Of a stretch of DNA of 24,782 nucleotides, positions 3,647 through 23,773 are shown one piece after another (the stretch's first letter is position 1; each line of letters opens with the position of its first letter). A program made the position numbers and the translations under genes. Below the pieces are notes generated by a model. The model was not told the DNA's origin. It ran no database searches and saw only the letters and a list, made by a program, of their open reading frames with translations. The stretch comes from a bacterium (GTDB taxonomy: Bacteria > CSSED10-310 > JAJRTK01): assembly GCA_024278345.1 (NCBI GenBank), contig JAJRTK010000510.1:1-24782 (forward strand), given 5' to 3'.

Positions 3647-3780
3647 AAGCAAACATTGCCCCGAGTATTCTGACATCCCTCCCAGAGATGCCGCCAAAGC
3701 CGTGAAGGTAGCAAAAAACTCGGCAATTTTCCTCTGGAACGGCTTGGCCTGTGGACTGTGAAACAAAAAAGATTAAAAAA

Positions 3781-3786
3781 AAGGAG
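3781..3786 (+). promoter_or_regulatory. Ribosome binding site fixing the start of the peptidase-propeller-barrel gene
   Basis: AAGGAG ends 9 nt before ATG 3796. The longer frame from GTG 3751 has no comparable site and would add 15 lysine-rich residues before the signal peptide, so 3796 is the better start. Confidence 0.75.
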
Positions 3787-3795
3787 CTCAGCCGG

Positions 3796-6700
3796 ATGAA
3801 CAGGGTACGCTTCATCATCGCGATCTCGGCGCTTACGCTCTGCGGAACGCCACTTGAATCGGCCACCGCATCGATATTCGAGCAATCGTACATCACACCG
3901 CAACGCGCCGGGAAAAGCAAAGTGCGTTGGCGAACATTCGACTGGAAATACGTCGATTTCCTGGCCGAAGAAAACGGCAGCGGAGGCGTTCGCCTCTTTT
4001 ACTACGACAGGGTCCAACAAGCCGCTGAAATCGCGGCAGCCGCGATTACCGAAGAGTACAGGAAGTTCAAGCGGCGCTTCGACATCACCCCCGACATCCG
4101 CATGCCCTACATTCTTTATGCCACGCACCTTGAGTTCGAAGAACAGAACTTGTTCCGAGTCTCCGAGACGGTCCTGGGCGTCACATCTCCCGCCGACCTT
4201 ACCCTTTCTTTGCCCTATTCAGGCGACAACCGCCTCTTCGTGGAAGTCTCCAGTCACGAAATGGCGCATCAGTTTACGATTCAGAAGATCTACCAAGTAC
4301 AGCGCCTCCACCGCGCTCAGGTCAACCCGATCCAGGGATTTCCCCTCTGGTTCATCGAGGGACTGGCGGAGTTTTACGCTCGCGATGGCCTCAATGACGA
4401 AGTGGCCATGTACATGTCCGACCTCCTTCTCAACCCGGACGAGAAACGACGTCACAAGTACGAGTCGTTCTGGGCCGACCAACCTAGGGGCTTCGTCCAG
4501 ACCTACAAGCTGGGGCAAGCACGGATTGCCTATCTTGCCGAGGAATTCGGGGAAGACCTGGTGCAGCAGGTCCTTGCAAAAAGCTACCTCATGACGCCGC
4601 GGGCCGACATGACACCGGCGGATCGGATCGTCAACTTCCCCGGCCTCATGGAAGAGCTCACAGCCGTCCGGCCGCACCAGATGGATAAGCAGTTCAAAAG
4701 CTGGCTGGAACAAAAGTTTAACATTGAGGGGCAAAGGAAATCGGAGGAAATACCGAAACTCGAAGAGCAGAAAGCGGTGAGCGACACCATGGACAGCTAC
4801 AGCGTGGCCAACGACGGCCAGCTCGTGTTGTACCGCGACGTGGACATCACCACCGGTGAATCAGGACTGCGGCTGGTCGATCTGCGGGATGAAGAGAGCC
4901 GCCTGACCGTAGCCTTAGAGGGAAAGCCGGGGATCGAGTCGCTTCACTTCTTCCAGCGCAAGATCTTTGCACTGGGCAGAGAGATCCTTGCGTACGGCGC
5001 TCTTGATCGCGGGTACGACGTCATCTACGTTCACCGTTTTAAGCGGAGAGTCCAGAAATCCGGAAAAGAGTTCAAGATAGAGTTCGAAATGGAAAAGCCC
5101 TGGAAGATCAAACTCAAACAGATAGGACTCATGGAGGTCGCCGATCTCGCCATTTCTCCGGATGACCGCCATCTAGCTTTCGCCGGACTGAGCAGTGATG
5201 GCAAATCCGATATCTACCTCATCGGACTTGACGAAAAAGGCGCCGCCGACACGATCCGGCGACTCACCGATGACTTTTACTCTGAAAAATCTCTTGCCTG
5301 GGGCGACGCGGGCCTTCTCTTTTCTGGAGACAAAACAGAGAGCGGCTATTTCAACCTCTTTTTGATGGATCCCGATTCAGGAGTCACGAAACGCCTCACC
5401 AGCGAGCCCGTCGATCACCAAACTCCCAGTTTCGGAAGAGACGGATCCATCTATTTCACAAGTTACGGAGCCGGAAAATCAAATGTCTACAGACTGAAAG
5501 ATGGCGTGGTTTCCAGGCTGACCCAAACCCACACGGGCCTCTTCGAACCGCGAGACGTCGGCTCGGGCCTCCTGCTCAAGCGCTTTTTTCGAGGACGCTA
5601 CCAGCTTTTCAAGACCGCTTCTCCCCACCTGGAGCCTCTGCCGCTCACCGATCCTGTCCTCCCTCCACAGTCAGAGAAAACCCGGAAGAGGGCTATCCCT
5701 CCCGTGGAAGCCCTCATGAATCAAGCAGCCAAGGCACTGAGTGAGCCCAAGTCCGCACCTTCCAAAACTTCGCCGACTCCCACCACCGATGCAGACCTGT
5801 CGCACGCCGCCCCCTCAGCGGACAATCTAGCCGAAGAACCAAGAGGCAAACGCGTCAGCTTGATGACAGAACCGCCTCTCAGCACCCCCGGCCGCGATCA
5901 CCGGAGCTTCGGAATGCGCCAGATCATACCCGGGAATAGCACCCCGCAATCCTTCCCGCGCAAGTCTCTGGACAGTGCGGAGCGGTACCGCTCCAACAAG
6001 ATCTCGGATTGGCGACCTGATGCCGGATTCTTCGGCCTGAGTACCGGGCAAGTGGGCGCCCTCTATCTGGCCTTCTCCGATCGAATGCGCGATCAGAGTC
6101 TCCTCGTAGATGTATCAATCTTGGGGGACATCGAGTTTACGGAGGCCAACATCTTTTACATCAATCGGAAGCGCCGAATGAGCTGGGGCATCGGAATCAT
6201 GCACAACCTAAGGATCCGCCAGGACAACGATCCGGCATCGGCCGAGCTTTCGTCGGGGATACCCGCCTATCTTGAGCGTGATTTTGGAGCCTACGGAATT
6301 CTTCGCTATCCTTTTGATCGCTTTACCCACGTCCAGCTCGGTCTGGGGCTTGTAGGTGTCCACCGATTTCGTTACAACGCCCTCGACCCCGAGGCCATCG
6401 CGATCTGGAATGAGCGAAGCGGCGGTCTTGACGCCCAATTCGACCTCTCCCTTAGCGGGGGCTACGACACCGTCGGATACCACTATGCCACCGGCCCGCT
6501 GAACGGAACATCGCTCTACGGGAAGATCGACTATTCCTACATTGCCACGGAAGCAAAATCGGTGATGTCGGCGCGGGGAGACTTCCAGCAGTATTTCCGA
6601 ATCTGGAAGGGCATCAACTTGATGTCACGGGCGGCGTTCGGAACGAGCTTCGGAGATCTGAGGTTCCGGCCGCAGTATTTTATTTCGTCGTACGACAACC

Positions 6701-7041
6701 TCAGGAGCTTCCCCTTTGGGGCCAGTGCCCTCCTAGATAACCACTTTGCCATCACGAATCTCGAGCTCCAAATTCCGCTGGCTTCTTTCATCCAAAAACC
6801 GGCGATTTTTCAGCTCTTCGAAGGAGTCATCGCCCTGGACGCGGGAAGCATCTTCGACGAGCTGGACCGCGATATCTTTTGGGAAAACCGGACGGTCGCC
6901 TTCGTCCTGGGCACCAATTTGCTCCTGGGTCCCTTCGTGCTGCGCCTCCACTTCGCCAAACCCCTTGATATTGGCGGCATTTTGCCCCAACAGGGAACGG
7001 GCTGGCAAACGAATTTCTCCATGCGCTACGCCTTTCTTTAG
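3796..7041 (+). CDS. Exported fusion: HExxH metallopeptidase, TolB/PD40-like propeller, Omp85-like outer-membrane barrel
   Basis: 1081 residues. A Sec signal peptide (~1-25) is followed by a gluzincin domain of the peptidase-MA type: H154-E-M-A-H158 (nt 4255-4269) and WFIEGLAEFY with the third ligand E188 (nt 4357-4359). Residues ~345-620 hold TolB/PD40-like propeller blades, for example SPDDRHLAF at 454 with the recurrent pattern of a hydrophobic strand followed by RLT. A Pro/Ser/Thr-rich linker (~625-730) leads to a C-terminal beta-barrel (~745-1081). The barrel carries LRSF at about 970, equivalent to the VRGF/LRGF lid motif of Omp85/BamA, and then the typical strand FEGVIALDAGSIF. The expected location is outer membrane with peptidase and propeller in the periplasm. 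The role is unknown; proteolysis or assembly at the outer membrane is inference. PD40-plus-barrel proteins are known in several Gram-negative phyla. It is monocistronic, convergent with the cyclase gene. Confidence 0.85.
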   Translation: MNRVRFIIAISALTLCGTPLESATASIFEQSYITPQRAGKSKVRWRTFDWKYVDFLAEENGSGGVRLFYYDRVQQAAEIAAAAITEEYRKFKRRFDITPDIRMPYILYATHLEFEEQNLFRVSETVLGVTSPADLTLSLPYSGDNRLFVEVSSHEMAHQFTIQKIYQVQRLHRAQVNPIQGFPLWFIEGLAEFYARDGLNDEVAMYMSDLLLNPDEKRRHKYESFWADQPRGFVQTYKLGQARIAYLAEEFGEDLVQQVLAKSYLMTPRADMTPADRIVNFPGLMEELTAVRPHQMDKQFKSWLEQKFNIEGQRKSEEIPKLEEQKAVSDTMDSYSVANDGQLVLYRDVDITTGESGLRLVDLRDEESRLTVALEGKPGIESLHFFQRKIFALGREILAYGALDRGYDVIYVHRFKRRVQKSGKEFKIEFEMEKPWKIKLKQIGLMEVADLAISPDDRHLAFAGLSSDGKSDIYLIGLDEKGAADTIRRLTDDFYSEKSLAWGDAGLLFSGDKTESGYFNLFLMDPDSGVTKRLTSEPVDHQTPSFGRDGSIYFTSYGAGKSNVYRLKDGVVSRLTQTHTGLFEPRDVGSGLLLKRFFRGRYQLFKTASPHLEPLPLTDPVLPPQSEKTRKRAIPPVEALMNQAAKALSEPKSAPSKTSPTPTTDADLSHAAPSADNLAEEPRGKRVSLMTEPPLSTPGRDHRSFGMRQIIPGNSTPQSFPRKSLDSAERYRSNKISDWRPDAGFFGLSTGQVGALYLAFSDRMRDQSLLVDVSILGDIEFTEANIFYINRKRRMSWGIGIMHNLRIRQDNDPASAELSSGIPAYLERDFGAYGILRYPFDRFTHVQLGLGLVGVHRFRYNALDPEAIAIWNERSGGLDAQFDLSLSGGYDTVGYHYATGPLNGTSLYGKIDYSYIATEAKSVMSARGDFQQYFRIWKGINLMSRAAFGTSFGDLRFRPQYFISSYDNLRSFPFGASALLDNHFAITNLELQIPLASFIQKPAIFQLFEGVIALDAGSIFDELDRDIFWENRTVAFVLGTNLLLGPFVLRLHFAKPLDIGGILPQQGTGWQTNFSMRYAFL

Positions 7042-7190: not shown

Positions 7191-10100
7191 CTATTGCTGA
7201 TCGAGCCAACTCAGAAAACCTTCCGGCAACTCCGAAAAGGCCTCTCCGCGAAAGACGGGCAACCCATTCTCGAAAGACTCCACGGCGGTCCGGAGAGCGA
7301 CGAATAGGCGACCAGACGGGCCATCCGTGGAAATCCCGGTCTCCCTAAAAATCGCGCCAGCCTCCTCCAGAAGGTCTCGGGCTACCTTCCCTTCCGCCAT
7401 CTTCCAATGCCCCCGTTCGCAAAGGCACCGAAGCCGGCCTAAACGGTCGTGATAGCGGTGAACAAGGGCTTCCGCCTCCCGAAGATGAAGTTCGGCATCA
7501 GACAGACGGTTTTCCACCCTTCTTTCGAATTGAGCGAGGACGCAGAGAATTTCTGCTTTGAAGAACCGGTTTTCCAGCCGATCAAGGATCTTGCATGCCT
7601 GCTCCAGCATGGACCGTGCCTCCTCTTGCTGGCCAAGAACATGCCGGAGCCGCGCCTGGCTGCAAAGTGTCACCGCCTCGTACCGGCGATCAGCCACCTC
7701 CCGATGGACGGTCAACGCATACTCGTAGTAGGCATTAGCCTCGTCGAACCGCAGGGCATCCTGGGCAAGACTTCCGAGATTCTCCAGAGTGATCCCTTCG
7801 GAGCGCCGGTTGCCCACCTCCTGATGTAGACGCAGAGCAGTCTCCTGGAGCTGCCTGCTGGCTTCGGGCTCACCGAGCTCTCTGCAAACCGCGCCCAGAT
7901 TACTCAGCGTCACGGCCTCCCCCTGGACATTGCCCATGTCCCGATGAACCCCAAGGGCCTCCCTGAACATGCCCTGAGCCGCACCAAGTTGACCTAGGTC
8001 GTAAAGACAAGCGGCCAACAGGGTCATGCACGTGGCTTCCGAACGGCGCTCGCCAACTTTGCTGTATAACTCCATGGCCTGCTGGGCAAATTTCCGTGCA
8101 TCCTCCAGCTTGCCTTCGATTCTAGAAACCGTGGCCAGGCCCTGAAGACTCATGGCCTGAGCCCCGGGGTCTCCCACGGCACGAGCCTCCTCCAAGGCAC
8201 GGCGGTGCTCGGTCAGGGCCTCTTCATAGCGCCCTTGTACCGCCAAAACGTCCCTGGCAAACTCGTTCCTGACTCGGACCATTTCCGGCGTTTGCTCTTC
8301 GCAAAGGCGAAAGTAGGCCCTGTACAGCCCGCGGGCCTCATCGTGAGCGTAGCGGCGAGAAGAGCGCCTGGCGCCTCCCAGGTAATAGCGCCGCGCCCGA
8401 TCTCCCACGCCGGCCCTTTTCCAGTGGTGCCCCAAACCCCGAAGATGCTTCTCCAGCTCTTCCCCGTAGACCGACTCAATTGCACGAGCCGCCGCAAAAT
8501 GAAGTTTTTGCAGGTGCGCCCTAGCCTGCATCTCGTAGGCTGCATCCCGGAACAGTGCATGGCGGAAACCAAAACTATCTCCGCCCAAACGGCGCCAGAT
8601 TCCTTGATCAACGCCTTTTTCCACGGCCTCACCGATGTGGGGGTTGCTCTTGAACATGGCCTCAAGGACCGGCAGGGAAAAGGTGCGGCCCAGGACGGAC
8701 GCGGCCTGAACGGTCCTCTTGAAGTCCGGGTGCATTCGATCCAGACGCGCCATCAACAGGGTGTTGACGTTGCCTGGAAGCAGCATGATGGAGGCCGTGG
8801 TCATGCTGTCCTCCTTGTTTCTCTCCACCTGGGCCGAATCCCGCCAATAGCTCAAAAGCTGCTCGGCGAAGAATGGATTCCCCTCCGCCTTGTCGGTGAG
8901 CAATCGCCCAAGCATGGCATCCACCGGCATTCCAAGGTGGAGCTCAGCCAACTTGCGCATCTCTTCTGGCTGCAAGCGTTTCAACTCAATGGTCTGCTCC
9001 GGAACGGAAGAACCAGCCGGAAGAGGAATCCGAAAAGGCCTTCGATCATCCTTGGGCCGGCAGGTACAGAGGATCGCCAGAGGGTAGCCAGCGGCGCTCC
9101 GTGCAATCGATGTGACGGTTCGCAGGGTTTCTTCATCGGACCACTGGGCGTCCTCAAGCTGGAAAATAACGGGCTGAACCGAGCTTTCGGCCAAGATCCA
9201 GGCGCGAAGAGCCTCCACGACGACTTCAAACCTTTGGCTTCGTGCCAGCCGCAACATGGGTGAATCACCGGTCCCGAGTCCAGCCAACTCCGCCAAGAGA
9301 GCCTTCCCGCCCGCCAAGTCTCGGGCCAGTGGATGGTCGTTTCCCAGGCCTTTCGATAGTTCCTGAAACGTCTTCTCGAAGGCGGCCTTGCTCTCTTCTT
9401 CGCCTGCATCAGGATTCTTGACAAACGCCTCGCGAAGAGCGGATTCCATGGGGTTGAGGGCCTCGCGAAGAGTCTGATCCGCCGGGGCATAAATCCACTT
9501 GACTGGCGCGGACTTCCAACGGCTTTCCAAGTGCCGACGGTAGCAGTCCACCATAAAGCTCTTCCCTATACCGGGTTCCCCGGTGATGTAGATGATCCCG
9601 GCGAACTCGCCTTGGTGGATAGGCCGGACCAAGCGGTCGAGAGCGGCCAAGGCGCGGTCGCGGCCCACGAGGCCCTTGGCCTGAAACGCCTTTGGGGAGC
9701 CACTCCGCTTCTTGCCGTTCACCGTGTAGACCTTTACCGGATGGCGAAAACCCTTGCAAAGGATATCGCCAACAGCTTCGCACTCGTAGCCGGACTCCAC
9801 CTGGAGGTGGACCTTCTGATCGCACCAAATCCCGTTCCAAGGAGCCTTCATCATCAACCGGGCAGCGAGATTTGTCCCACGCCCAAGGCAGGCAAATTCG
9901 TGGCGCTCAGCGCCGCCATTGAAGCCCACGTATCGGATGTCTCTTGTCACTCCGAACCGAAGGCGAATCGACGGAGAGCGTCTCTCCCTCAGGCTCAGCG
10001 CAAAATCGAGAGCACGCTGGGTATTGTTTTCATGGGCTACGGGCGCACCAAAATGGACAAGACTATTGGCACCTTTGTCACCAAAATCAACTCCGGTGAA

Positions 10101-10904
10101 AGCTCCGCCGTACTGGGTCCCAAGCTCGTGGAGAAGCAGAATAAAATCAGGCAGGTCAACAACGTTCTCGATGGACATGAAAACGCTGGTAACGTCTCGG
10201 AATTCGCCTTGCGGAAGGATGTCCGTGATCCCCGGAGCCAGGAAATGGAGACCGTCCCCTCCAACCTCCGGTGATGCCACCGGCTCACGCTCGCCCTCCA
10301 TCTCCCCAAGAGAAATCAAGCGAAACGCATCCGGCCCCACTTGCTCCGCCTCGTGGTCCAAAGCCTGTTGGTAAAAACCTCTATCAAGAAGAATCTGCCC
10401 CTTCCCCGCCCCGTGCTCCACCCTGGCGCACCCATCGATGGCCGGACCACTGAAATAGCAGACGGCCCTCTCCGGAGTTACGTAGACAATGCCCCAGTCA
10501 AGACGCCCCCAGGAAAGACCGATCTTGATGGAGAACGGGAATGCACCGTAAGCCGTGGAATAGGTGGCATGGGACCGGAAGAAATCCTGCATGCGGTTCG
10601 CCGAATGCAGCGCGTAGTCCGCCACGTCGTGGTCCGGGTTGTCGGGAAAGATGGCCGTGAACGCATCGCCAGCGAATCCAGTAATGAATCCCCCCGCCGA
10701 ATGGACCGCTTCCACGAGAGGATCGAAAAAAAAGCGCAACGAATTCGCCAAGGCTTCCGCGCCCGGACGTCCGTGACGCACGAGCTGCCCCGTGAGACTG
10801 GTGAAGCCGGAAATATCCACGAATAGACTCGCCGCCTCCAGGGAACCCTGGACGGTTTTTCCATTGTCGTGCTGAAGGATGAACCAGGGGATCAAAGGAT
10901 TCAT
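7191..10904 (-). CDS. Class III nucleotide cyclase with tandem catalytic domains, NTPase and TPR region (soluble adenylyl cyclase-like)
   Basis: 1237 residues from ATG 10904, with only a weak GGTGA upstream. Cyclase domain 1 (~24-190) has the metal Asp residues D30 (FVDISGF) and D80 (GFAGD), but Asp157 where the catalytic Asn is expected. Cyclase domain 2 (~237-395) lacks the first metal Asp (Ser244) but keeps N345 and R349 (TNLAAR) and a DKG motif (276-278). The two domains should form one composite site. An AAA/STAND-type NTPase follows: Walker A GEPGIGKS (442-449) and Walker B with LED/D585 and W588. The C-terminal ~350 residues are TPR repeats. Domain order matches mammalian soluble adenylyl cyclase. 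The likely product is cAMP, made in the cytoplasm; there is no membrane segment. The gene is last in a minus-strand run, 37 nt after the TRAP binding protein, so the two are probably coexpressed. Confidence 0.88.
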   Translation of the reverse strand: MNPLIPWFILQHDNGKTVQGSLEAASLFVDISGFTSLTGQLVRHGRPGAEALANSLRFFFDPLVEAVHSAGGFITGFAGDAFTAIFPDNPDHDVADYALHSANRMQDFFRSHATYSTAYGAFPFSIKIGLSWGRLDWGIVYVTPERAVCYFSGPAIDGCARVEHGAGKGQILLDRGFYQQALDHEAEQVGPDAFRLISLGEMEGEREPVASPEVGGDGLHFLAPGITDILPQGEFRDVTSVFMSIENVVDLPDFILLLHELGTQYGGAFTGVDFGDKGANSLVHFGAPVAHENNTQRALDFALSLRERRSPSIRLRFGVTRDIRYVGFNGGAERHEFACLGRGTNLAARLMMKAPWNGIWCDQKVHLQVESGYECEAVGDILCKGFRHPVKVYTVNGKKRSGSPKAFQAKGLVGRDRALAALDRLVRPIHQGEFAGIIYITGEPGIGKSFMVDCYRRHLESRWKSAPVKWIYAPADQTLREALNPMESALREAFVKNPDAGEEESKAAFEKTFQELSKGLGNDHPLARDLAGGKALLAELAGLGTGDSPMLRLARSQRFEVVVEALRAWILAESSVQPVIFQLEDAQWSDEETLRTVTSIARSAAGYPLAILCTCRPKDDRRPFRIPLPAGSSVPEQTIELKRLQPEEMRKLAELHLGMPVDAMLGRLLTDKAEGNPFFAEQLLSYWRDSAQVERNKEDSMTTASIMLLPGNVNTLLMARLDRMHPDFKRTVQAASVLGRTFSLPVLEAMFKSNPHIGEAVEKGVDQGIWRRLGGDSFGFRHALFRDAAYEMQARAHLQKLHFAAARAIESVYGEELEKHLRGLGHHWKRAGVGDRARRYYLGGARRSSRRYAHDEARGLYRAYFRLCEEQTPEMVRVRNEFARDVLAVQGRYEEALTEHRRALEEARAVGDPGAQAMSLQGLATVSRIEGKLEDARKFAQQAMELYSKVGERRSEATCMTLLAACLYDLGQLGAAQGMFREALGVHRDMGNVQGEAVTLSNLGAVCRELGEPEASRQLQETALRLHQEVGNRRSEGITLENLGSLAQDALRFDEANAYYEYALTVHREVADRRYEAVTLCSQARLRHVLGQQEEARSMLEQACKILDRLENRFFKAEILCVLAQFERRVENRLSDAELHLREAEALVHRYHDRLGRLRCLCERGHWKMAEGKVARDLLEEAGAIFRETGISTDGPSGRLFVALRTAVESFENGLPVFRGEAFSELPEGFLSWLDQQ

Positions 10905-12931: not shown

Positions 12932-13498
12932 GTGAAAACAATGCGACGAACCCAAACGCTCATGGCCCTCGTGGCCGGCGCAATGACCGTTCTTCCGCCC
13001 TGCCTGGCTTCGGCAGGACAAGCCTCGAAAAAACTCAGCCCGATTGTCGAGTGGTCCAACGTCCGACAAGACCCGGCGGTCTGGAAGATTCTGGACATCC
13101 TTGGGGAGTCGAATAAGTGGGTCCGGAACAATAAAATGGTGGATGGGCGGTACGTGGAAGCAAAATGCACGGCGACCCTGGTCAAGCGAGGACCCGGTTT
13201 CTATCTTCGCGAAGATGGCGCCGCCTCGATCCGGTCGCCATTGCTCGACGCCAAGGCCCTTTATTTCTGGCGTCGAAGCGAAGTGGAAGAAAGCTGGGGC
13301 AGTAGCACTCCAACCTCGGCCAAACAGGTGGGAGACGTCGTGGTCAATGAGGGCGAAAACCAATGGCGATTCCCCCTGCTGGCCATGCCTTCAAGGCAAT
13401 GGCTCGACATCCGGATCGTCACCCGAGGCAAGGATACCCTCCTCTATGTCATGGCCCCGGGGACAGAAAAGTATTTGGAAGAGTGGATCTTGAGGTAG
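12932..13498 (+). CDS. Secreted protein of unknown function
   Basis: 188 residues with a clear Sec signal peptide (basic MKTMRRTQ, hydrophobic LMALVAGAMTVL, likely cleavage near ASAGQA). The mature part is about 160 residues, rich in Trp and charged residues, with probable beta structure toward the C-terminus (QWLDIRIVTRGKDTLLYVM). I recognise no domain. It is the first gene of the plus-strand cluster that continues with the PAP2 gene 37 nt downstream, so it may belong to that envelope module. The excellent RBS and normal codon use make it a convincing gene. Confidence 0.75.
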   Translation: MKTMRRTQTLMALVAGAMTVLPPCLASAGQASKKLSPIVEWSNVRQDPAVWKILDILGESNKWVRNNKMVDGRYVEAKCTATLVKRGPGFYLREDGAASIRSPLLDAKALYFWRRSEVEESWGSSTPTSAKQVGDVVVNEGENQWRFPLLAMPSRQWLDIRIVTRGKDTLLYVMAPGTEKYLEEWILR

Positions 13499-13535
13499 TT
13501 TTAGTGAACCTCCCTCTGGATTGTGGGAACAAACA

Positions 13536-14117
13536 ATGAGGCGCTCTTTGGGACCAACATTGACAGCATGGGATCGATCACTGTTCCAATTCCTGAATCA
13601 GGATCTCGCCACCCCATGGCTCGATCCTATCATGGCCTGGATCACGGCGTCGAGCAACTGGAGAGCACCTCTTTTCCTCCTTCTGCTTTTCTTGCTGGTT
13701 CGCGGGCCGGCTTCCCTTCGCTGGACTCTTCTGGGAGCGGGGCTCGTGGCCGGCCTCACCGATCTGGTTTCCAGTCAACTTCTCAAACCCCTGTGGCATG
13801 CCCCAAGGCCTTGCATTTTTGAATCCTCACCGCGACTTCTGGTGGGCATCAAGCGTTCGGGCTCTTTACCCTCGTCCCACGCGGCCAATCTCTTGGCGGT
13901 AGGGGTCTATCTTCAGGGACGCATGACGCCCCGGCTCATCTGGCTCCCGTTGGCACTCCTTACCACAGCCATTCTCTATTCCAGGATCTACGTGGGCGTG
14001 CATTATCCATCGGACATCCTGGGCGGGACCCTCCTGGGCATCCTTTTGGGAAGGGCGGCCCTTGGGCTGCCGCTTCCAGGCTCCTTCAAGGAGAGTCCCG
14101 GATCGAGGCCGACATGA
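13536..14117 (+). CDS. PAP2-superfamily membrane phosphatase
   Basis: 193 residues from ATG 13536; TTG 13521 would add five residues, and neither start has a strong RBS. The three PAP2 signature blocks are present: K84-x6-R91-P92, PSSHA with H115 (Ser replaces Gly of the usual PSGH) and SRxxxxxHxxxD with R150, H156 and D160. Several transmembrane helices surround them, for example APLFLLLLFLLV and WLPLALLTTAILYS. Family members dephosphorylate lipid phosphates or diphosphates, such as undecaprenyl diphosphate or phosphatidylglycerol phosphate, at the outer face of the inner membrane. The substrate here is unknown. The stop codon overlaps the ATG of the FadL-like gene (ATGA), which points to translational coupling. 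Confidence 0.88.
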   Translation: MRRSLGPTLTAWDRSLFQFLNQDLATPWLDPIMAWITASSNWRAPLFLLLLFLLVRGPASLRWTLLGAGLVAGLTDLVSSQLLKPLWHAPRPCIFESSPRLLVGIKRSGSLPSSHAANLLAVGVYLQGRMTPRLIWLPLALLTTAILYSRIYVGVHYPSDILGGTLLGILLGRAALGLPLPGSFKESPGSRPT

Positions 14118-15415
14118 TCATAGCCAACCGCCACCGAAGTTATGCGGCGAGATCCGTCTGTCGCATGGTTGCCGTCACCCTGGTTCTCCTTGGCTACTGG
14201 CCGCCCTGTACCTTCGCCCTCACGGACGAGGAAATCTACGAAGCCTTCGAATTCAATTTTTCTCTGCCCGGGGCGCGGAGCGCTGGGATGGGACGCGCCT
14301 TCGTCGGACTGGCCGATGATGCTACGGCCTCGATCTCCAACCCGGCGGGGCTCATGACTCTCCAGGTGCCGGAAGTGGCTCTGGAGAGCAAGTTCACGGG
14401 ATTCGACGTCCACCGCCGCGCCGAGGCGGACTCATTCCTCGATCCCCGGACGCGGCGTTTCGGGAGCTCCGTGCCTCAGCTTTCGTTCATCGGCCTCGTC
14501 TATCCAAAGGGAAATCTGGTCTTCGGTGTCTACCGGTACGAGACCCTCCGTTTCGACGAGGCGTTTTCCTTGGAAGCGCGGCAGCTACCGCTGGACGGGG
14601 GCATCGTGGAACTGCCACCCACGGACGCCCAGATGGCGCTCACGGTTTCGAATATCGGCGGCTCCGTAGCAATCCGCCTGCCCGAGAACTTTTCCCTGGG
14701 TTTTTCGGCGTCCGCGGCTCTCCTGGAGATGGATAGTCGAACGACCCATCTTTCCACCACTGAACCGGCAACCATCACGGATCAGACCATCATCAACGCC
14801 ACGGGTTTGGATTGGAGCGGAACAGCCGGGCTCCTCTATCGTCCCTCCGAACGGTTTTCCGCGGGGGCTTTTTACAGCCTTGGTCCTTCCTTCAGCGTAA
14901 CGCAAAGAGCCACGGGGCTGGGTCCTCAGCGCCAGGAATTCCCTGTCAGGATCCGGATTCCCGATCGCTTTGGCGTGGGCCTGAGCGTCAGGCCCACCGA
15001 TGAGCTCACGGTTCTCCTCGACCTGCTCAAGGTTCAGTACGCCCAGCAGGCAAGCGGGCGGTTTCCGACGCTGGTGCGATTCCCCGAGCTGAATCCCGAC
15101 GATTTTACCATCGACGACCAGTGGGAAATCCACCTGGGGGCGGAGTACGTTTTCGCGATAGGATCCGTGCCGTTCGCGGCCCGGGCGGGCCTTTTCACGA
15201 ATCCAGCCCACTCCCTCCGCTATGAAGGCCCCGTGGAACAACTGGAGGGCCAGATCGCGGACGCCCTCTTCAACGCTACTGCCGGAAAATCGCCTCTTGC
15301 CTATAGCGTGGGACTGGGGGCCGTCTTCAGCGGTTATTTCCAAGTCGATATGGCGTTCGTCAATGCCAATCTCTTTGACGAAGCCATCGCATCCGTGATT
15401 TTCCACTTCAAATGA
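14114..15415 (+). CDS. FadL/OmpP1-family outer-membrane protein
   Basis: 433 residues. A signal peptide (~1-36, hydrophobic VAVTLVLLGYW, cleavage near TFA|LTDEE) is followed by the FadL-type N-terminal hatch sequence: FSLPGARSAGMGRAFVG and then LADDATASISNPAGL. The rest alternates polar and hydrophobic residues as in a beta-barrel and ends in an amphipathic strand with a C-terminal FHFK. The family carries hydrophobic compounds (long-chain fatty acids, aromatics) across the outer membrane. The ligand cannot be read from the sequence. It starts inside the PAP2 stop codon with GAGG 5 nt upstream and is followed at once by the membrane NTPase, so outer-membrane uptake or sensing is tied to that module. 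Confidence 0.85.
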   Translation: MIIANRHRSYAARSVCRMVAVTLVLLGYWPPCTFALTDEEIYEAFEFNFSLPGARSAGMGRAFVGLADDATASISNPAGLMTLQVPEVALESKFTGFDVHRRAEADSFLDPRTRRFGSSVPQLSFIGLVYPKGNLVFGVYRYETLRFDEAFSLEARQLPLDGGIVELPPTDAQMALTVSNIGGSVAIRLPENFSLGFSASAALLEMDSRTTHLSTTEPATITDQTIINATGLDWSGTAGLLYRPSERFSAGAFYSLGPSFSVTQRATGLGPQRQEFPVRIRIPDRFGVGLSVRPTDELTVLLDLLKVQYAQQASGRFPTLVRFPELNPDDFTIDDQWEIHLGAEYVFAIGSVPFAARAGLFTNPAHSLRYEGPVEQLEGQIADALFNATAGKSPLAYSVGLGAVFSGYFQVDMAFVNANLFDEAIASVIFHFK

Positions 15416-15449
15416 GTGGCCTCTATTCACGGAAGCCGATTCATCAACT

Positions 15450-15454
15450 GGAGG
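15450..15454 (+). promoter_or_regulatory. Ribosome binding site supporting a GTG start at 15460
   Basis: GGAGG lies 5 nt before GTG 15460. The alternative ATG 15412 overlaps the previous stop as ATGA but has no Shine-Dalgarno sequence and gives an unusually long n-region before the signal segment. Both starts remain possible. Confidence 0.55.
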
Positions 15455-15459
15455 CAGCA

Positions 15460-17310
15460 GTGGAAAACCGACGATCAGCCGGACGAGCTCCAGGCGCGAT
15501 TCCTCTTTTCCCGAACAGCCGCCGGGTCGGTTGCCTCATCACTCTGTTCATGCTCGTCTGCCCCCGCCCCACCATGGCCGATGCCTGGTACGAAGACTAC
15601 GACAGAGCGGAAACACTGCTCCGCCAGGCGGAGGCGGGACAAGACCCCGCCCAGGCCAAGGAAGACTATCTGCAAGTCATCGAAATCGTTGCGGATATCC
15701 TTCTCAAACACCATCCGATCCCCGAGCTCAACAAGCGAAAGTACGGGGTGGCCTATTATAGGGATTACCTGCCCTACTACCTCCTTGGCCGTGCCTATGA
15801 AGGGCTGGGGGACTGGAAAACCGCCCTTGCTGAGTACGAGCGCTCCCTCGATGCCGCGGCGATCCGCGGTCGAAAAAAACTCTACGAAGACCTTTCGCGC
15901 CGTCAGGCACGGCTTTCGGCACTGCTTCGACCCTCCCCAACCCCCTCTTTGCTGAACCAGGCTAACAGCGCGCTGAAAAGGGGCGACCTGGATCTGGCCG
16001 AACGGCTTGCCTCGCTTCTGCCAAACCCTGAATCCATGGCGATTCGCGCCAAGATAGAGCGGTTGAGGCAGACTCCGCTCCCTTCGGCTACTCCCCTTGC
16101 CTCCGCTACCGCTTCGATAAAACTGCCAGCAACCTCCAAGGCGGTTCGCGGACATCTTCCAAGGCCCAGGCCGACGCGCCGACCCCGGACCACCACTCCG
16201 AAACCCAAACCTTCTCCCACGACGACTCCCTCTGAAGCGCCATCAGTGACACCGAGGCCCAGCGCAATTTCGACTCCAAAAGCCCCGGTTGAGATCGCCC
16301 GGCCCCCGGGATTTACACCCTCTTCTGGCGGTAACGGGGAGCCAGTTTCGCCCTCCTTTTTCCTGCCCTGGCTGCGGGCGGTTCTCATCGCATTCCCACT
16401 TTCCTTGCTCTTCGGCTTCGGTGGCTCGGCCATTCTGAAGCGGCGACGCCGTAGAAGGGCGGTTGCCAGGGGGTTCAACCCGTACATCGCAGGCACACCG
16501 ATTCTGGAAGAGAACATGTTTTTCGGCCGCGAAAAGCTACTTTCTCAAATCCTCAGCACTCTCCACCACAACAGCCTGCTCCTCCACGGCGAAAGGCGGA
16601 TCGGCAAGACCAGCTTGCTCCACGGCATCTACCGCCATCTGAAACTACTCGATGACCCAGAGTATGAGTTCCTTCCAGTCCTCATCGATCTTGAAGGAAC
16701 GCCCGAGGATGGTTTTTTCGGACTCCTCATGTCCGAGATCACATCTCAACTGGACGAGCGCATTGCTGGTGTGGATCTGAGGTTCGATCCCACGCGGGCA
16801 CGCGGCGGCTATGCCGGAACCGATTTCGTCCGCGATCTTCGCGCCATCGTTCGCCATCTACGCAAAACCAGCCAGCGCCACCCCAAGCTGATTCTGCTCC
16901 TTGACGAGGTGGACGTTTTGAATACCTTCAGCAACCGGACGAATCAGCGGCTCAGAAGCCTATTCATGAAGACTTTCGCACGCCACCTTGGCCTGGTCAT
17001 GGCGGGAGTGCGGATTAGCAAGGAATGGGACTCGGAAGGAAGCCCTTGGTTCAACTTCTTTGAAGAGATTCCCGTCAGGCCATTGGCTATGGCTGAAATC
17101 CGGGAGCTGGTTGTCAAACCGGTTGCAGGGATCTACACCTATGAAGAGGAAGCCGTGCAAGAGATCGTCACACTGGCGGAAGGACGCCCCTATATCGTCC
17201 AAAAACTCTGCATTGCTTGCGTAAGCCGAGTCGCCGAAGAGAAACGTATTAAAATCCTGGTGGAGGATGTCGTGGCCACGGCGCGTCATATCCTGGGGAA
17301 TCGCTCATGA
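15460..17310 (+). CDS. Membrane protein: periplasmic TPR-like domain, Pro/Thr-rich linker, TM helix, cytoplasmic STAND/AAA-type NTPase
   Basis: 616 residues from GTG 15460 (632 from ATG 15412). An N-terminal signal or TM segment (~23-42) precedes a helical TPR-like region (~43-150, with LPYYLLGRAYEGLGDWKTAL). A Pro/Thr/Ser-rich stalk follows (~200-290), then a TM helix (~300-326) with a basic stop-transfer run of Lys/Arg. The NTPase opens with NPYIAG and FFGR, then Walker A GERRIGKTS (377-385, K383) and Walker B LILLLDEVD (D482). It ends with GRPYIVQKL, typical of signal-transduction ATPases. Topology suggests that a periplasmic signal is passed to the cytoplasmic NTPase. The adjacent downstream gene encodes a soluble paralogue of the same NTPase, overlapping by 4 bp (ATGA), so the two products may form a complex. 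Ligand and output are unknown. Confidence 0.85.
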   Translation: MENRRSAGRAPGAIPLFPNSRRVGCLITLFMLVCPRPTMADAWYEDYDRAETLLRQAEAGQDPAQAKEDYLQVIEIVADILLKHHPIPELNKRKYGVAYYRDYLPYYLLGRAYEGLGDWKTALAEYERSLDAAAIRGRKKLYEDLSRRQARLSALLRPSPTPSLLNQANSALKRGDLDLAERLASLLPNPESMAIRAKIERLRQTPLPSATPLASATASIKLPATSKAVRGHLPRPRPTRRPRTTTPKPKPSPTTTPSEAPSVTPRPSAISTPKAPVEIARPPGFTPSSGGNGEPVSPSFFLPWLRAVLIAFPLSLLFGFGGSAILKRRRRRRAVARGFNPYIAGTPILEENMFFGREKLLSQILSTLHHNSLLLHGERRIGKTSLLHGIYRHLKLLDDPEYEFLPVLIDLEGTPEDGFFGLLMSEITSQLDERIAGVDLRFDPTRARGGYAGTDFVRDLRAIVRHLRKTSQRHPKLILLLDEVDVLNTFSNRTNQRLRSLFMKTFARHLGLVMAGVRISKEWDSEGSPWFNFFEEIPVRPLAMAEIRELVVKPVAGIYTYEEEAVQEIVTLAEGRPYIVQKLCIACVSRVAEEKRIKILVEDVVATARHILGNRS

Positions 17311-19253
17311 TGAACCCGTTCGTCGCAGGAAGTTGGGTCCGGGGGCCACAGTTTTTCGGACGGGGAGAACTGCTGCAAAGCATCCTTTCTGGCGGGCGTC
17401 ACGCCATTTGGCTGTTGGGAATGCGGCGGGTTGGCAAAACTTCGGTTCTCAAACAACTGGAGTGGCTCGCCTCCTCCGAACCATGGAATGACCAGTACCT
17501 CCCGATCTATTGGGATATGCAGGGCAGCAACGATGCCGAAGGCCTAAGAGAAAGCCTCTTCGAGTCTCTGGAAGACGCCGAGGATGCCTTCGCCCAATGC
17601 GACATCGATCCCGCGGAGCTGGAAGCCGATGATCTCTTTCGCATCCTTCGCCTGGCCATGCGGGCTGTCAGTCGCTCGGGACGGCGGTTGCTCCTGCTTT
17701 GTGACGAAGCCGAAGAACTGATCCAAGTGGCCTCCACGGATGTGGTAAGCCTGCGGCGCCTGCGGCGCCTCTTGCTCCAGGGAGAAAAAATTCGGTGCAT
17801 CCTCGCGGCGACGAAACGAATGGGAGACGCCTTGGGGGGTCAGGTGGAGGGAACGAGCCCATTCCTCAACGGCTTTTTGCCTCCCCTCTACTTGCGCCAC
17901 TTCGACTCAAAAACAGCCCGGGAGCTCTTGACCGGGGGTGGCGTCCCCGATGCCGATGCCAAACTTGCCTGCCGGTTCACCGGTGGCCACCCCTATCTCG
18001 TGCAGCTCATCGGGCGGCGGATCTTCAGCGGATCCGGCATCGAAGAGACCATTGAAGAGCTCAAAGCCGACGAGCTTGTCAAAGCCTTCTTTCGAGTCGA
18101 TTTCTCTTACCTCTTGGAGACGGAAAAGAAGGTCATCTTCCAGGTCTTCCAGCAAGGTTCCATCTCCAGGTTTCAGCTTGAATCGGATTCCGGCTACAGC
18201 GGAGAGCACCTCCGTTCTCTGCTCCATTCTCTGGAAATGGCTGGATACCTGAAAAAAGAGGAAGATCGTTTTGGAATCTCCAACGACTTCTTCCGTCACT
18301 GGCTCCGTCACGAACAGCTCTGGAGTGATGGACAGGCCAAGCTGAGCGAGACAACCGCCCCAAATAATTTCTCTGCAACGGGGTCGCTCGAAGAGCGGAG
18401 CCTGGCACAGTATCGCATCGTGAAGCCCCTGGGCCACGGCGGGATGGGCACCGTCTACCTGGCACACGACAGAAATCTTGGAAGGCAGGTCGCTCTCAAG
18501 GTCATCCGAAGCGAGGTCATCCATTCGCCCACGGTGTCGGAGCGGTTCCAGCGGGAGGCCAGGACGATTTCGTCACTCAACCACGGAGGCATCGTCACGG
18601 TCTACGAGTTTCGCCAGGTGGACGGCGTCTGGTTCTTGGCCATGGAAATGGTGGATGGCGTCGATTTGCGAACGTTTCTAGCGGAAAGCACCGGTCCAGT
18701 GCCCCAATCAAGCGCCCTTCGCTGGAGCACGACCGTCGCGAAAATCCTTGCCTACGCCCACGAGGCGGGCGTCATCCACAGGGATGTCAAGCCAGCCAAT
18801 GTAATGTTGACAAGCCAGGGAGCCATCAAGGTCCTTGATTTTGGCCTTGCCAAGCTCCACCGTCCTGACGCGGTCTCCCATTCCCAAGTGACTGCCAGCC
18901 TGACCCAGGAGGGATTCGTCATCGGAACCCTGGCCTATATGTCTCCGGAGCAGGCCCAGGGCCTTCCAGTGGGGCCCGCGACGGATCAGTTCTCCCTGGG
19001 GTGCCTCCTCTACGAGCTTCTCACCAAGCGGCTCCCCTTCTCCGCCAAGACCAGCTACGAGGTCATCCGGCGCCTTGTTTCCGAAGAACCGGTTCCAGCC
19101 GGCAAGATTCGGCCCGACATCCCGGCGGCAACGGAGTCGATTCTGCACCGTCTGCTGCAAAAGCGACCGGAGGATCGCTACCCCTCCATGGACGACGCGG
19201 CGAAAGCTCTTCAAAACCTGGAAAATTCCAGCCCTTCACCCCTTCTGGAATAA
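17307..19253 (+). CDS. STAND-like NTPase - winged helix - Ser/Thr protein kinase (PknB-type) fusion
   Basis: 648 residues. The N-terminal NTPase begins MMNPFVAG and FFGR, with Walker A GMRRVGKTS (38-46, K44), Walker B LLLLCDEAE (D133) and GGHPYLVQLIG. A winged-helix-like segment (~270-340) ends in FGISNDFFRHWL. The C-terminal Hanks-type kinase (~368-640) looks active: glycine loop LGHGGMGTVY (from 375), K398 in VALK, HRD with D493, DFG with D511, SPEQ, and a Ser/Thr-rich activation loop. No transmembrane segment is present, so it is cytoplasmic. Bacterial kinase-NTPase proteins usually have the kinase first; here the order is reversed. The start overlaps the stop of the membrane NTPase gene (ATGA). 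Probable role: NTPase-gated phosphorylation downstream of the membrane partner. Targets are unknown. Last gene of the cluster. Confidence 0.92.
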   Translation: MMNPFVAGSWVRGPQFFGRGELLQSILSGGRHAIWLLGMRRVGKTSVLKQLEWLASSEPWNDQYLPIYWDMQGSNDAEGLRESLFESLEDAEDAFAQCDIDPAELEADDLFRILRLAMRAVSRSGRRLLLLCDEAEELIQVASTDVVSLRRLRRLLLQGEKIRCILAATKRMGDALGGQVEGTSPFLNGFLPPLYLRHFDSKTARELLTGGGVPDADAKLACRFTGGHPYLVQLIGRRIFSGSGIEETIEELKADELVKAFFRVDFSYLLETEKKVIFQVFQQGSISRFQLESDSGYSGEHLRSLLHSLEMAGYLKKEEDRFGISNDFFRHWLRHEQLWSDGQAKLSETTAPNNFSATGSLEERSLAQYRIVKPLGHGGMGTVYLAHDRNLGRQVALKVIRSEVIHSPTVSERFQREARTISSLNHGGIVTVYEFRQVDGVWFLAMEMVDGVDLRTFLAESTGPVPQSSALRWSTTVAKILAYAHEAGVIHRDVKPANVMLTSQGAIKVLDFGLAKLHRPDAVSHSQVTASLTQEGFVIGTLAYMSPEQAQGLPVGPATDQFSLGCLLYELLTKRLPFSAKTSYEVIRRLVSEEPVPAGKIRPDIPAATESILHRLLQKRPEDRYPSMDDAAKALQNLENSSPSPLLE

Positions 19254-21439: not shown

Positions 21440-22416
21440 GCGCCGAAGAGACTCATCTGGTGACGGGAGCCGCCGGTTTTGCCGGGCGTCACCTTTGCCG
21501 CCTGCTCCGGGGCCACGGGCATCGAGTCATCGCCATGCGTGGCCCGGGTTCTCGGAGCGACCCCATCGAGGGAGCCCATCAAGAAATCCTCCAGGACCTC
21601 CTGGACCTCGAAGGCCTGGCAAAGGTCTTGGATTCGGTCAAACCGGATTCTCTGTATCATCTGGCGGCCATCGCCAACGTCGGGGGCTCCTGGGCAGCGC
21701 AAAAGCGGACCCACGAAACCAACTACATGGGAACTTTCCACCTCTTGGAGTCAATACGGATTGCGGGGCTCAAGCCTCGGATCGCACTTGTGGGCTCCGC
21801 CGCGGCGTACGGTATTGCGAGGCCACCGGATCGGCCGATCACTGAATCGGCTCCTCTCCGCCCCAAAGATCCCTACGGCGCCTCGAAGGCCGCGGCGGAG
21901 TTTTTGGGCCTCCAATTCCACCTTTCTCACGGGCTCCACGTCGTCCTGCTCCGGCCCTTCAACCATACGGGGCCCGGCCAGAGTCCGGGATTCGTCTGCG
22001 CGGACTTTTCCAGGCAGATCGCCGCCATCGAGCTGGGTCTGAAGAAACCCACGATCCGCGTTGGGAATTTGGAAGCCATGAGAGATTTCACGGATGTCCG
22101 GGACACCGTGGAAGCTTACCGCCTCGCCGCCGAGAAGTGCGAGGCGGGCATCCCCTATAACATCGCCACTGGCCAGGCCTGGTCCATTTCCCAAGTGCTG
22201 GAACGGCTCTGCGAGCTTGCAAAAGTTCCGGTGGAAGTGGAAGTGGACCCCGCGCTCTTTCGCCCCATCGACAATCCACTCATGCTGGGGGACGCCTCGA
22301 AGCTCCGGAAGGAAACCGGCTGGCAACCGACGAAGGACTTTATGAGGGAAACCCTGGCCGAACTGCTGGAGGACTGGCGGGCCAGGCTGAAGAAGGAGCT
22401 CCAGGGTGAGCTTTAG
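21436..22416 (+). CDS. rmd: GDP-4-keto-6-deoxy-mannose reductase-like SDR (Rmd family)
   Basis: 326 residues from GTG 21436, inside the stop of the gmd-like gene. It has GAAGFAG (11-17), HLAAIANVGGSW, SAAAYG (121-126), Y147 and K151 in DPYGASK, then the Rmd-type stretch RPFNHTGPGQSPGFVC and the RVGNLEAMRDFTDVRD block. Rmd reduces the Gmd product to GDP-D-rhamnose, a precursor of D-rhamnose in O-antigens and other glycans. The 4-keto product could instead feed other 6-deoxy sugars, so the end product is inferred. The 3' end overlaps the start of the lipid-kinase fusion by 11 nt. Confidence 0.8.
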   Translation: MSAEETHLVTGAAGFAGRHLCRLLRGHGHRVIAMRGPGSRSDPIEGAHQEILQDLLDLEGLAKVLDSVKPDSLYHLAAIANVGGSWAAQKRTHETNYMGTFHLLESIRIAGLKPRIALVGSAAAYGIARPPDRPITESAPLRPKDPYGASKAAAEFLGLQFHLSHGLHVVLLRPFNHTGPGQSPGFVCADFSRQIAAIELGLKKPTIRVGNLEAMRDFTDVRDTVEAYRLAAEKCEAGIPYNIATGQAWSISQVLERLCELAKVPVEVEVDPALFRPIDNPLMLGDASKLRKETGWQPTKDFMRETLAELLEDWRARLKKELQGEL

Positions 22417-23773
22417 TGAAACACGCAGACAGACTCTTCACGTGAGCATGGTGGCCTTCGCGCTCCTTCTGCGTTTCTTGCCGATTTGGGGAGCGTTGAT
22501 CTGCGCCTGCATCGCTTTTCTCCACAATCTTGTAGTACTTCCCATGACCGGGCGTGAAGTTTTTTTCCGGCCAGAGGACAAGGACCGGGGATACCCCTTG
22601 GGAATCCTTGTCTATCCCGTGACGGTCTTTTTTTTGATTCTGCTCTATGGCCACCAGATGTTCCTGGTGGGCGCTGCCTGGGCAATCCTTTCCTTTGGGG
22701 ATGGTTTCGCCACCATCGTCGGGAAACGCATGGGCCGCCATCCCCTGCCCTGGTGCCCGGAGAAGAGCTGGGAAGGGAGTGGGGCCTACGTTTTGTTCGG
22801 GACCGCGGGCGCTCTCCTCATGGCCCTTTGGATCGGCTCTTCAGCCTTCAATGACATCGTAACGACAACTTACCCGATCCTCCCCGGAAGTGCCGCCAAG
22901 CTCCTTTGGGTCTGCTTCGCCGGAGCTCTCGTGGCGGCACTCATCGAGTCGCTTCCCACGGGCATCGACGACAACATCAGTGCTCCATTGGTGGCGGGTT
23001 TCTTGATGTATGTCCTTTGGGGTGCCGACCCTGGCCGGGCGCAGGTCGTTCTGGAGTGGGGAGACCACAGCCTTCTGGTGGGACTGCTGGTCACAGGGGT
23101 CGTGGGCATCGCCAGCTACGCCCTGGGCTTCGTGAGCAAATCGGGAATGCTTGGAGGAACCATCGTCGGGGTTCTGCTGGTCGCGGGAGCGGGCCTTCGC
23201 GGGTTTGGCGTCCTGCTTCTTTTCTTCGTCATCGGCTCGGCGGTCTCAAAGTTCGGATATCGCAAGAAGCAGGCATTTGGGGCGGCTCAGGAAGCGGGAG
23301 GCCGCCGGGGCTCCAAGCACGCCGCGGCAAATTGCGCGGCGGGAGTCCTGTTGGGGTTGGCCTCTCTGGTCCACCCGGCGGCCAGTAGCCTGTTCCTCAT
23401 CGGCTTTGTGGCGGCTTTTGCCACGGCCATCGCCGACACAACATCCAGTGAATTGGGGTCCCTTTACGGGAAGAGCCCGATCCTTCTCACGACCTTCAAG
23501 AGTGTTGCGCCGGGAACCGAGGGCGCCGTTTCCATAGAGGGGACTCTCATTGGAATCGCCTTCGCCGCACTCCTGGCAATGAGCGGGTGGGGTCTGGGGT
23601 TAATCCCAAGAGAATCCATCATCGTCGTCACGGCGGGCGGCTTCATAGGGATGAGCTTTGAAAGCTATCTTGGCGCGGCAACCAAAGGCTTGGACAATGA
23701 GCTCTTGAACTTCCTGAATACCGTCGTCGGAGCCACGGCGGCCATCTTATTGGCTGCCTGGCTAAACCTTTGA
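22406..23773 (+). CDS. Fusion of SEC59/VTE5-like polyprenol (phytol) kinase and DUF92/VTE6-like prenyl-phosphate kinase domains
   Basis: 455 residues, polytopic membrane protein. GTG 22406 has GGAG 7 nt upstream (22395-22398). The N-terminal domain (~1-205) carries the CTP-dependent dolichol/phytol kinase signatures SFGDGFATIVGKRMG (96-110), KSWEGS (120-125) and ESLPTGIDDNIS (181-192). The C-terminal domain (~220-455) is DUF92/TMEM19-like: SKSGMLGGTIVG, RRGSKHAAANCAAG (310-323), ADTTSSELGSLYGK (353-366) and GTEGAVSIEGT (370-380). In plants VTE5 phosphorylates phytol and VTE6 phosphorylates phytyl-phosphate. The fusion therefore suggests two successive phosphorylations of an isoprenoid alcohol at the inner membrane. 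Next to nucleotide-sugar genes, the substrate may be a polyprenol that carries glycans. That is inference. Confidence 0.85.
   Translation: MSFSETRRQTLHVSMVAFALLLRFLPIWGALICACIAFLHNLVVLPMTGREVFFRPEDKDRGYPLGILVYPVTVFFLILLYGHQMFLVGAAWAILSFGDGFATIVGKRMGRHPLPWCPEKSWEGSGAYVLFGTAGALLMALWIGSSAFNDIVTTTYPILPGSAAKLLWVCFAGALVAALIESLPTGIDDNISAPLVAGFLMYVLWGADPGRAQVVLEWGDHSLLVGLLVTGVVGIASYALGFVSKSGMLGGTIVGVLLVAGAGLRGFGVLLLFFVIGSAVSKFGYRKKQAFGAAQEAGGRRGSKHAAANCAAGVLLGLASLVHPAASSLFLIGFVAAFATAIADTTSSELGSLYGKSPILLTTFKSVAPGTEGAVSIEGTLIGIAFAALLAMSGWGLGLIPRESIIVVTAGGFIGMSFESYLGAATKGLDNELLNFLNTVVGATAAILLAAWLNL

Follow-up and report, generated by a model that had tools for sequence, protein, structure and literature searches.

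A module of three adjacent genes, coding for a FadL-type outer-membrane barrel and two partner NTPases, is conserved across bacterial phyla and lies on the plus strand of the stretch studied here (contig JAJRTK010000510.1; 24,782 nucleotides, hereafter the window), which is one whole contig of a 6.06-Mb draft genome in 550 contigs. The module comprises the last three of five plus-strand open reading frames (ORFs) which a preliminary description had read as one compact chain from the envelope to the cytoplasm, consisting of a secreted protein, a PAP2 membrane phosphatase, the FadL-like protein, a membrane NTPase and an NTPase-kinase. ORF coordinates and Pfam matches bear out this order and these identities, and all five genes lie where they had been placed. 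In the following, the fourth gene (15412–17310) is named N1 and the fifth (17307–19253) N2. We consider it likely that barrel, N1 and N2 constitute a trans-envelope signalling system of two partner NTPases, in which the barrel would present a cue and the output of N2 would be released.

A search in the phylum KSB1/Calditrichota identified N1 orthologues which are 43–50% identical over the NTPase, and the neighbourhoods in this phylum show the order FadL, N1, N2 (with kinase) as in the window, an order that recurs in Acidobacteriota. A contig scan with the N1 alignment yielded 75 loci, which belong to several classes of Acidobacteriota, KSB1/Calditrichota, Gammaproteobacteria (Woeseiaceae), Binatota, Anaerolineae (Chloroflexota), Desulfosarcina and relatives, and SAR324, together with one weak archaeal match; in seven genomes of the window's own phylum, only weak matches to N1 and no orthologue of N2 were found. 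When neighbours were compared all-against-all, just N1/N2 and FadL were common across clades. The preliminary description proposed to look in other genomes for conserved co-occurrence of the two NTPase genes with FadL and PAP2; for FadL this is found across phyla, and the part of its envelope-to-cytoplasm chain that runs from FadL through the membrane NTPase to the NTPase-kinase is likewise conserved.

The two NTPases are closely paired. Among 247 Acidobacteriota genomes, an even draw selected independently of N1 but including the centre genome, the N1 profile matched six (2.4%; 2, 2, 1, 1, 2 and 1 copies), and the N2 profile matched the identical six with identical copy numbers (hypergeometric p = 3.4e-12). 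Of 296 genomes from a gammaproteobacterial order, 11 carried N1 and 12 carried N2, with 10 carrying both (p = 6e-16), the three exceptions being matches that are partial or located near contig starts. Across 62 N1-bearing genomes, N2 was located within 6 kb of 61 of the 71 N1 genes; in 48 of these linked pairs it follows less than 500 nucleotides (nt) downstream on the same strand, ten show a divergent gammaproteobacterial layout, and each of three Anaerolineae carries one N2 unlinked to N1. Distances in the N1 and N2 trees correlate with r = 0.93 over 51 loci, to which shared species history contributes. Chance clustering of unrelated genes, as might be suspected in a genome with about 130 kinase matches and given that the first two of the five genes are not conserved partners, would be a very remote explanation for the locus as a whole: it is refuted for FadL-N1-N2 by the recurrent gene order in KSB1/Calditrichota and Acidobacteriota and by the exactly matching phyletic distributions of N1 and N2, and stands for the PAP2 gene and the secreted gene.

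Linkage to FadL was assessed in the 48 well-flanked N1 loci, i.e., those with at least 3 kb on either side. A FadL gene was present no more than four ORFs from N1 in 34 of them and directly upstream on the same strand in 20, compared to a chance expectation of about 1–2% per locus derived from 2–13 profile matches per genome; the case named in the preliminary description as speaking against the idea, an NTPase pair never found beside FadL elsewhere, therefore does not apply. The type-I loci of Sulfidibacter and Acanthopleuribacter are devoid of FadL, and an unlinked FadL in these genomes groups with the FadLs of other type-I loci with 100% support. In the window, the FadL-like protein clusters with the module FadLs (on a long branch) and separately from the two further FadL-like proteins that its genome encodes. 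These data bear on a further option, namely that the NTPase pair truly signals and FadL is merely a frequent regulated neighbour, a target and no part of the input. Such a role would be in line with the absence of FadL near N1 in 14 of the 48 loci and with all three Anaerolineae loci, where FadL is not nearby and N1 carries a Reg_prop sensor instead. However, the 20 loci with a same-strand FadL directly upstream of N1, the unlinked FadL of matching phylogeny kept in two cultured genera and the correlation of N1 and FadL distances (r = 0.84, 20 loci, with a contribution of species history) argue for an input part, and we regard the target role as possible but doubtful.

The architecture of N1 suggests a membrane-spanning sensor. 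For its translation, GTG 15460 is a more probable start than ATG 15412, since a GGAGG (15450–15454), the likely ribosome-binding site, lies 5 nt upstream of the former and the latter is without such a site. Consequently, of the ATGA overlaps described earlier those at the PAP2/FadL and N1/N2 junctions stand, whereas the one between FadL and N1 is perhaps unused. An AlphaFold2 model places a helix, taken as the signal sequence, at residues 36–49 and the NTPase at residues 355–630. Between them follow a helical TPR region (residues 59–220; 15586–16071), predicted to be periplasmic and supported by TPR matches and confident model helices, a putatively disordered linker rich in Pro, Thr and Ser (residues 224–312; 16081–16347; pLDDT < 50, alignment and Pfam), and, according to model and sequence, a helix including the single transmembrane segment followed by RRRRRR on the cytoplasmic side (residues 319–352; 16366–16467). 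In KSB1 orthologues, an Ig-like domain (Big_7/Glucodextran_B) occupies the position of the linker.

The cytoplasmic AAA+/STAND-like NTPase of N1 (16474–17307) shows, in columns invariant in two N1 alignments, a GR(E) motif (within MFFGREKLL), Walker A GERRIGKT, Walker B LLLDEVD and the motif SEGSPWFNFFEE; G-R and Walker residues are invariant across the alignments, as are P593 and Q597 of the G-x-P-type motif EGRPYIVQK. Pfam assigned TPR and an AAA/nSTAND1-type NTPase to N1, PDB profile matches of its NTPase included 1ye8, 2qen and ORC4, and profile searches of both NTPases together pointed to 2qen, 2fna and the TPR-sensor STAND protein 6mfv. The modelled fold is nearest to archaeal ORC/Cdc6 (Z 18.3, root-mean-square deviation (rmsd) 3.3, 251 residues), compared to Z 16.3 (rmsd 3.3, 244 residues) for the archaeal ATPase 2qen, and the kinship to AAA+/ORC therefore appears equally strong as that to archaeal ATPase_2/STAND proteins.

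N2 (648 amino acids; 17307–19253), with full-length orthologues that are 33–42% identical, combines an NTPase (residues 2–240; 17310–18026), a winged-helix-like segment and a Ser/Thr kinase (residues 366–638; 18402–19220; Pfam Pkinase 2.7e-48). The NTPase matches Pfam ATPase_2/AAA_22 and the PDB profiles 2fna, 2qen and 6mfv and features the motifs FFGRGELL, GMRRVGKT (Walker A) and LLLLCDE (Walker B), again with G-R and Walker residues invariant across alignments; in its G-x-P-type motif, GGHPYLVQL, P229, L231 and Q233 are invariant. The catalytic kinase residues, K398, E417, HRD (491–493), DFG (511–513) and SPE (546–548), are complete in the window and invariant across the N2 alignment. A second N2, likewise an NTPase-kinase and 33% identical over 651 amino acids, is encoded on contig C262 of the same genome (L026:657–2498, plus strand; L025:12698–14521, minus strand); it is an orphan without N1 or FadL and is divergently oriented to a GAF-sigma54 activator, a type also found beside the module in KSB1 loci.

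Apart from the window, the output domain carried by N2 is a Ser/Thr kinase in 15 loci, a kinase together with an extracytoplasmic function (ECF) sigma factor in 5 loci of one clade, and an N-terminal Trans_reg_C domain, i.e., a DNA-binding domain of the OmpR/CadC type, in another 15; 19 loci show no recognised output and 3 have a truncated N2. In one Holophagae group of the class without recognised output, what is left in N2 is the decayed C-lobe of a kinase (hmmsearch 1e-9 to 1e-6; hhalign 97.5%), while no kinase remnant was found at the C-terminus of type-I Holophagae N2. Judging from the decayed lobe, the kinase is probably an ancient output that disappeared or gave way to others, with the NTPase pair being retained. 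At least five output changes are needed on the N1 tree, where the window, which has the kinase form, stands alone on a long branch close to the base of the main group. Ser/Thr phosphorylation, the output suggested by the preliminary description, is thus too narrow, being one among several outputs; N2 proteins of other loci bear a DNA-binding domain, a kinase with an ECF sigma factor or a decayed kinase. On the input side, N1 sensors vary between TPR, TPR with an Ig-like domain, and a Reg_prop propeller. Since both NTPases are constant while N1 varies in its periplasmic domain and N2 in its output, the comparison suggests a two-protein signalling logic; a constant NTPase-NTPase core with exchanged sensors and outputs is the pattern expected of a signalling relay.

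The decayed C-lobe, with N-lobe and catalytic loop gone, was seen in L106, L108, L116, L119, L121, L126 and L135, and NTPase, Ser/Thr kinase and ECF sigma factor share a single chain in L078, L100, L107, L138 and L139 (Thermoanaerobaculia and relatives). There is also a wider family of adjacent NTPase pairs (L027:954–6097, L065:5104–10727, L066, L070), with the sensor on the first and the effector on the second protein.

Such wider relatives, in which sensor and effector are split as in N1 and N2 (GAF/TIR in L027, TPR/CHAT in L065), lead to another explanation, i.e., a biological-conflict device in which a STAND-type sensor would detect envelope injury or phage, the N2 kinase would act as effector and FadL would be the guarded receptor surface. 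STAND-like NTPases are common in defence, TIR and CHAT are effectors of the wider relatives, and the spread of the module is patchy, with 2.4% of Acidobacteriota genomes. On the other hand, PADLOC gave generic kinase and marginal NTPase matches only, with no system-specific NTPase model matched, outputs are mainly regulatory (kinase, ECF sigma factor, Trans_reg_C) and not lethal, the sequences are well conserved (43–50% between phyla) instead of diversifying, and none of the recurrent neighbours was seen to be another defence gene. We therefore consider a defence role rather unlikely and favour signalling.

The barrel itself (433 amino acids; 14114–15415) belongs to the FadL superfamily. Its match to PF03349 (1.5e-6) reaches 27.4 bits, below the curated cut-off of 29.7, and the family was matched by all 12 members of the FadL alignment (E < 0.01). 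The AlphaFold2 model (pLDDT 84.7) shows the 14-strand barrel of the FadL/TodX fold, the NPA motif is present, and structure comparison gave the highest scores for E. coli FadL (Z 35.3 for 3pgs; Z 34.8 for 1t16, rmsd 3.0, 342 residues) and TbuX/CymD (Z 34.3), followed by BamG (Z 31) and PorV (Z 27.8). As the model scores highest against FadL and TbuX/CymD, this protein is best read as a channel for hydrophobic compounds, and a BamG- or PorV-like role could also apply. The latter would fit an envelope-assembly or secretion machine, with the N1 and N2 ATPases controlling assembly or export and the kinase in a regulatory role. This idea may draw on weak NCBIfam similarity to PorV_fam (4e-11, short) and BamG (2e-7), on the proximity of the BamG and PorV structure scores and on secreted or lipoprotein genes adjoining some loci. 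However, the best structural scores go to FadL/TodX/CymD channels, recurrent neighbours include no BamA, SprA-like or other secretion component, and sigma factor and DNA-binding outputs fit gene control, so that we judge an assembly machine improbable.

Returning to the proposed relay, the FadL-type barrel, either itself or via a compound it admits, would offer a cue to the TPR domain of N1 in the periplasm. Through its single pass across the inner membrane, N1 could couple this domain to its cytoplasmic NTPase, and a nucleotide-dependent change there might then be relayed to the N2 NTPase through direct contact, by mixed assembly or by template-type oligomerisation as in STAND/ORC ATPases. 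This contact would recruit or open N2 and thereby free its output, in the window the Ser/Thr kinase and at other loci a DNA-binding domain or a kinase with an ECF sigma factor. The activation of N2 by N1 is proposed by analogy with the STAND proteins MalT and PH0952, which are kept closed by ADP and assemble upon activation (PMC6468293). Where kinase and ECF sigma factor are fused, the former may phosphorylate the latter, in the manner of PknS and EcfK (PMC13147305). The architecture is the basis for inferring that the module signals at all, which way the signal flows, that N1 and N2 touch directly, that FadL is the input gate and what kind of cue is involved. Several points weigh against this scheme: joint transfer of an operon could also produce the phyletic co-occurrence and the tree correlation; N2 was not found in five N1-bearing draft genomes; orphan N2 genes occur, such as that on C262; 14 of the 48 well-flanked loci are without a FadL near N1; and BamG and PorV, of FadL fold yet no transporters, score just 4–7 Z lower than FadL.

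The individual parts are of known kinds. STAND regulators with a TPR sensor (MalT, PH0952; PMC6468293) and archaeal ATPase_2 proteins (2qen, 2fna) share the P-loop NTPase with GR(E), Walker A/B and G-x-P-like motifs as well as the TPR sensor, and in known STAND members the effector is switched by the nucleotide state. Unlike in these one-chain proteins, the sensor resides on N1 and the effector on N2, N1 spans the inner membrane, and an outer-membrane barrel is part of the module. Two-component systems likewise encode a modular sensor and a modular output as a pair and have Reg_prop and Trans_reg_C domains in common with the module, but its constant core is NTPase plus NTPase, and Pfam scans of N1, N2 and relatives revealed neither histidine kinase nor receiver domains. 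FecA-FecR-FecI resembles it in the outer-membrane barrel, the single-pass inner-membrane transducer, the cytoplasmic regulator and, for some loci, the ECF sigma factor; here, however, the barrel is of FadL type and not a TonB-dependent receptor, NTPases stand in place of an anti-sigma factor, and no FecR match was obtained in Pfam scans of N1 and relatives. The Hanks-type kinase PknS is coupled to the sigma factor EcfK (PMC13147305), a combination that Thermoanaerobaculia fuse to N2, but PknS is itself a membrane kinase, whereas in the module a separate NTPase protein serves as the sensor. In NTP-dependent ternary conflict systems (PMC7159879), several linked NTPase components and exchangeable effectors are likewise found, but these systems are built on vWA/MoxR and other cores; vWA/MoxR was unmatched in the module, and FadL is unmentioned in the main text of that study.

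None of the NCBIfam, PADLOC or specific Pfam families covers N1 or N2, and the paper describing the genus Sulfidibacter is silent on kinases, FadL and NTPases. In line with the preliminary description, which knew of no system with such a composition, no description of the module was found in open-licence literature, though one could exist in subscription journals; the arrangement is apparently undescribed. To our knowledge, a trans-envelope relay of paired NTPases is not among the known kinds of signalling. Whether the module represents a separate class of signal transduction, in which partner AAA+/STAND-type NTPases replace histidine kinase and response regulator and a FadL barrel is the dedicated input gate, appears to us evenly balanced. 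If so, bacteria would have one more general way of carrying external information across two membranes, in which an ATPase pair links a channel of the outer membrane with kinases, sigma factors or DNA-binding domains, and a function would be assigned to many proteins whose annotation so far stops at AAA/TPR ATPase, FadL-like or serine/threonine kinase. The module occurs in several phyla and in the cultured species Sulfidibacter corallicola and Acanthopleuribacter pedis, and is therefore directly testable.

The two upstream genes of the window, by contrast with their placement in the chain by the preliminary description, are local accessories outside the conserved module. The secreted protein (188 amino acids; 12932–13498, plus strand) has no match in Pfam or NCBIfam, and 37 nt separate its gene from that of the PAP2 membrane phosphatase (13536–14117, plus strand; PF01569 1.8e-16), which resembles undecaprenyl-pyrophosphatases and retains the K-x6-RP, PSSH and SR-x5-H-x3-D motifs. 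Their membership in the module was rejected, as a single-sequence search, which distant homologues could escape, found no homologue of either in the 75 related loci; we propose that they are local passengers or targets. A scan of the region for sigma-70 promoters and terminators gave sites no commoner than in shuffles.

Neighbours of related modules include a GAF-sigma54 activator, found in 12 loci, as well as secreted proteins specific to individual clades. A sigma-54 promoter between this activator and FadL in KSB1 loci was considered and dropped, with sites in one of ten intergenic regions. In gammaproteobacterial loci (L079:6265–7887 and equivalents in 10 loci), a secreted protein with three DUF5666 domains and one DUF2807 (head GIN) domain is encoded between N1 and N2, and large clade-specific secreted proteins, one with a TGase_elicitor match, lie beside the module (L074:1221–5779 and L074:10931–12400, with equivalents in seven Holophagae-type loci).

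Elsewhere in the window, positions 7191–10904 (minus strand) encode a 1237-amino-acid protein with AAA_16 and TPR, whose N-terminal 400 residues, without a Pfam match, resemble two adenylate/guanylate cyclase-type domains. A secreted protein of 1096 amino acids (3751–7041, plus strand) shows a HEMAH metallopeptidase-like motif, PD40 repeats and a barrel-like C-terminus, and the membrane protein at 22406–23773 (plus strand) is, as judged by eye, an apparent fusion of a CDP-diglyceride synthase/dolichol-kinase-like part with DUF92.

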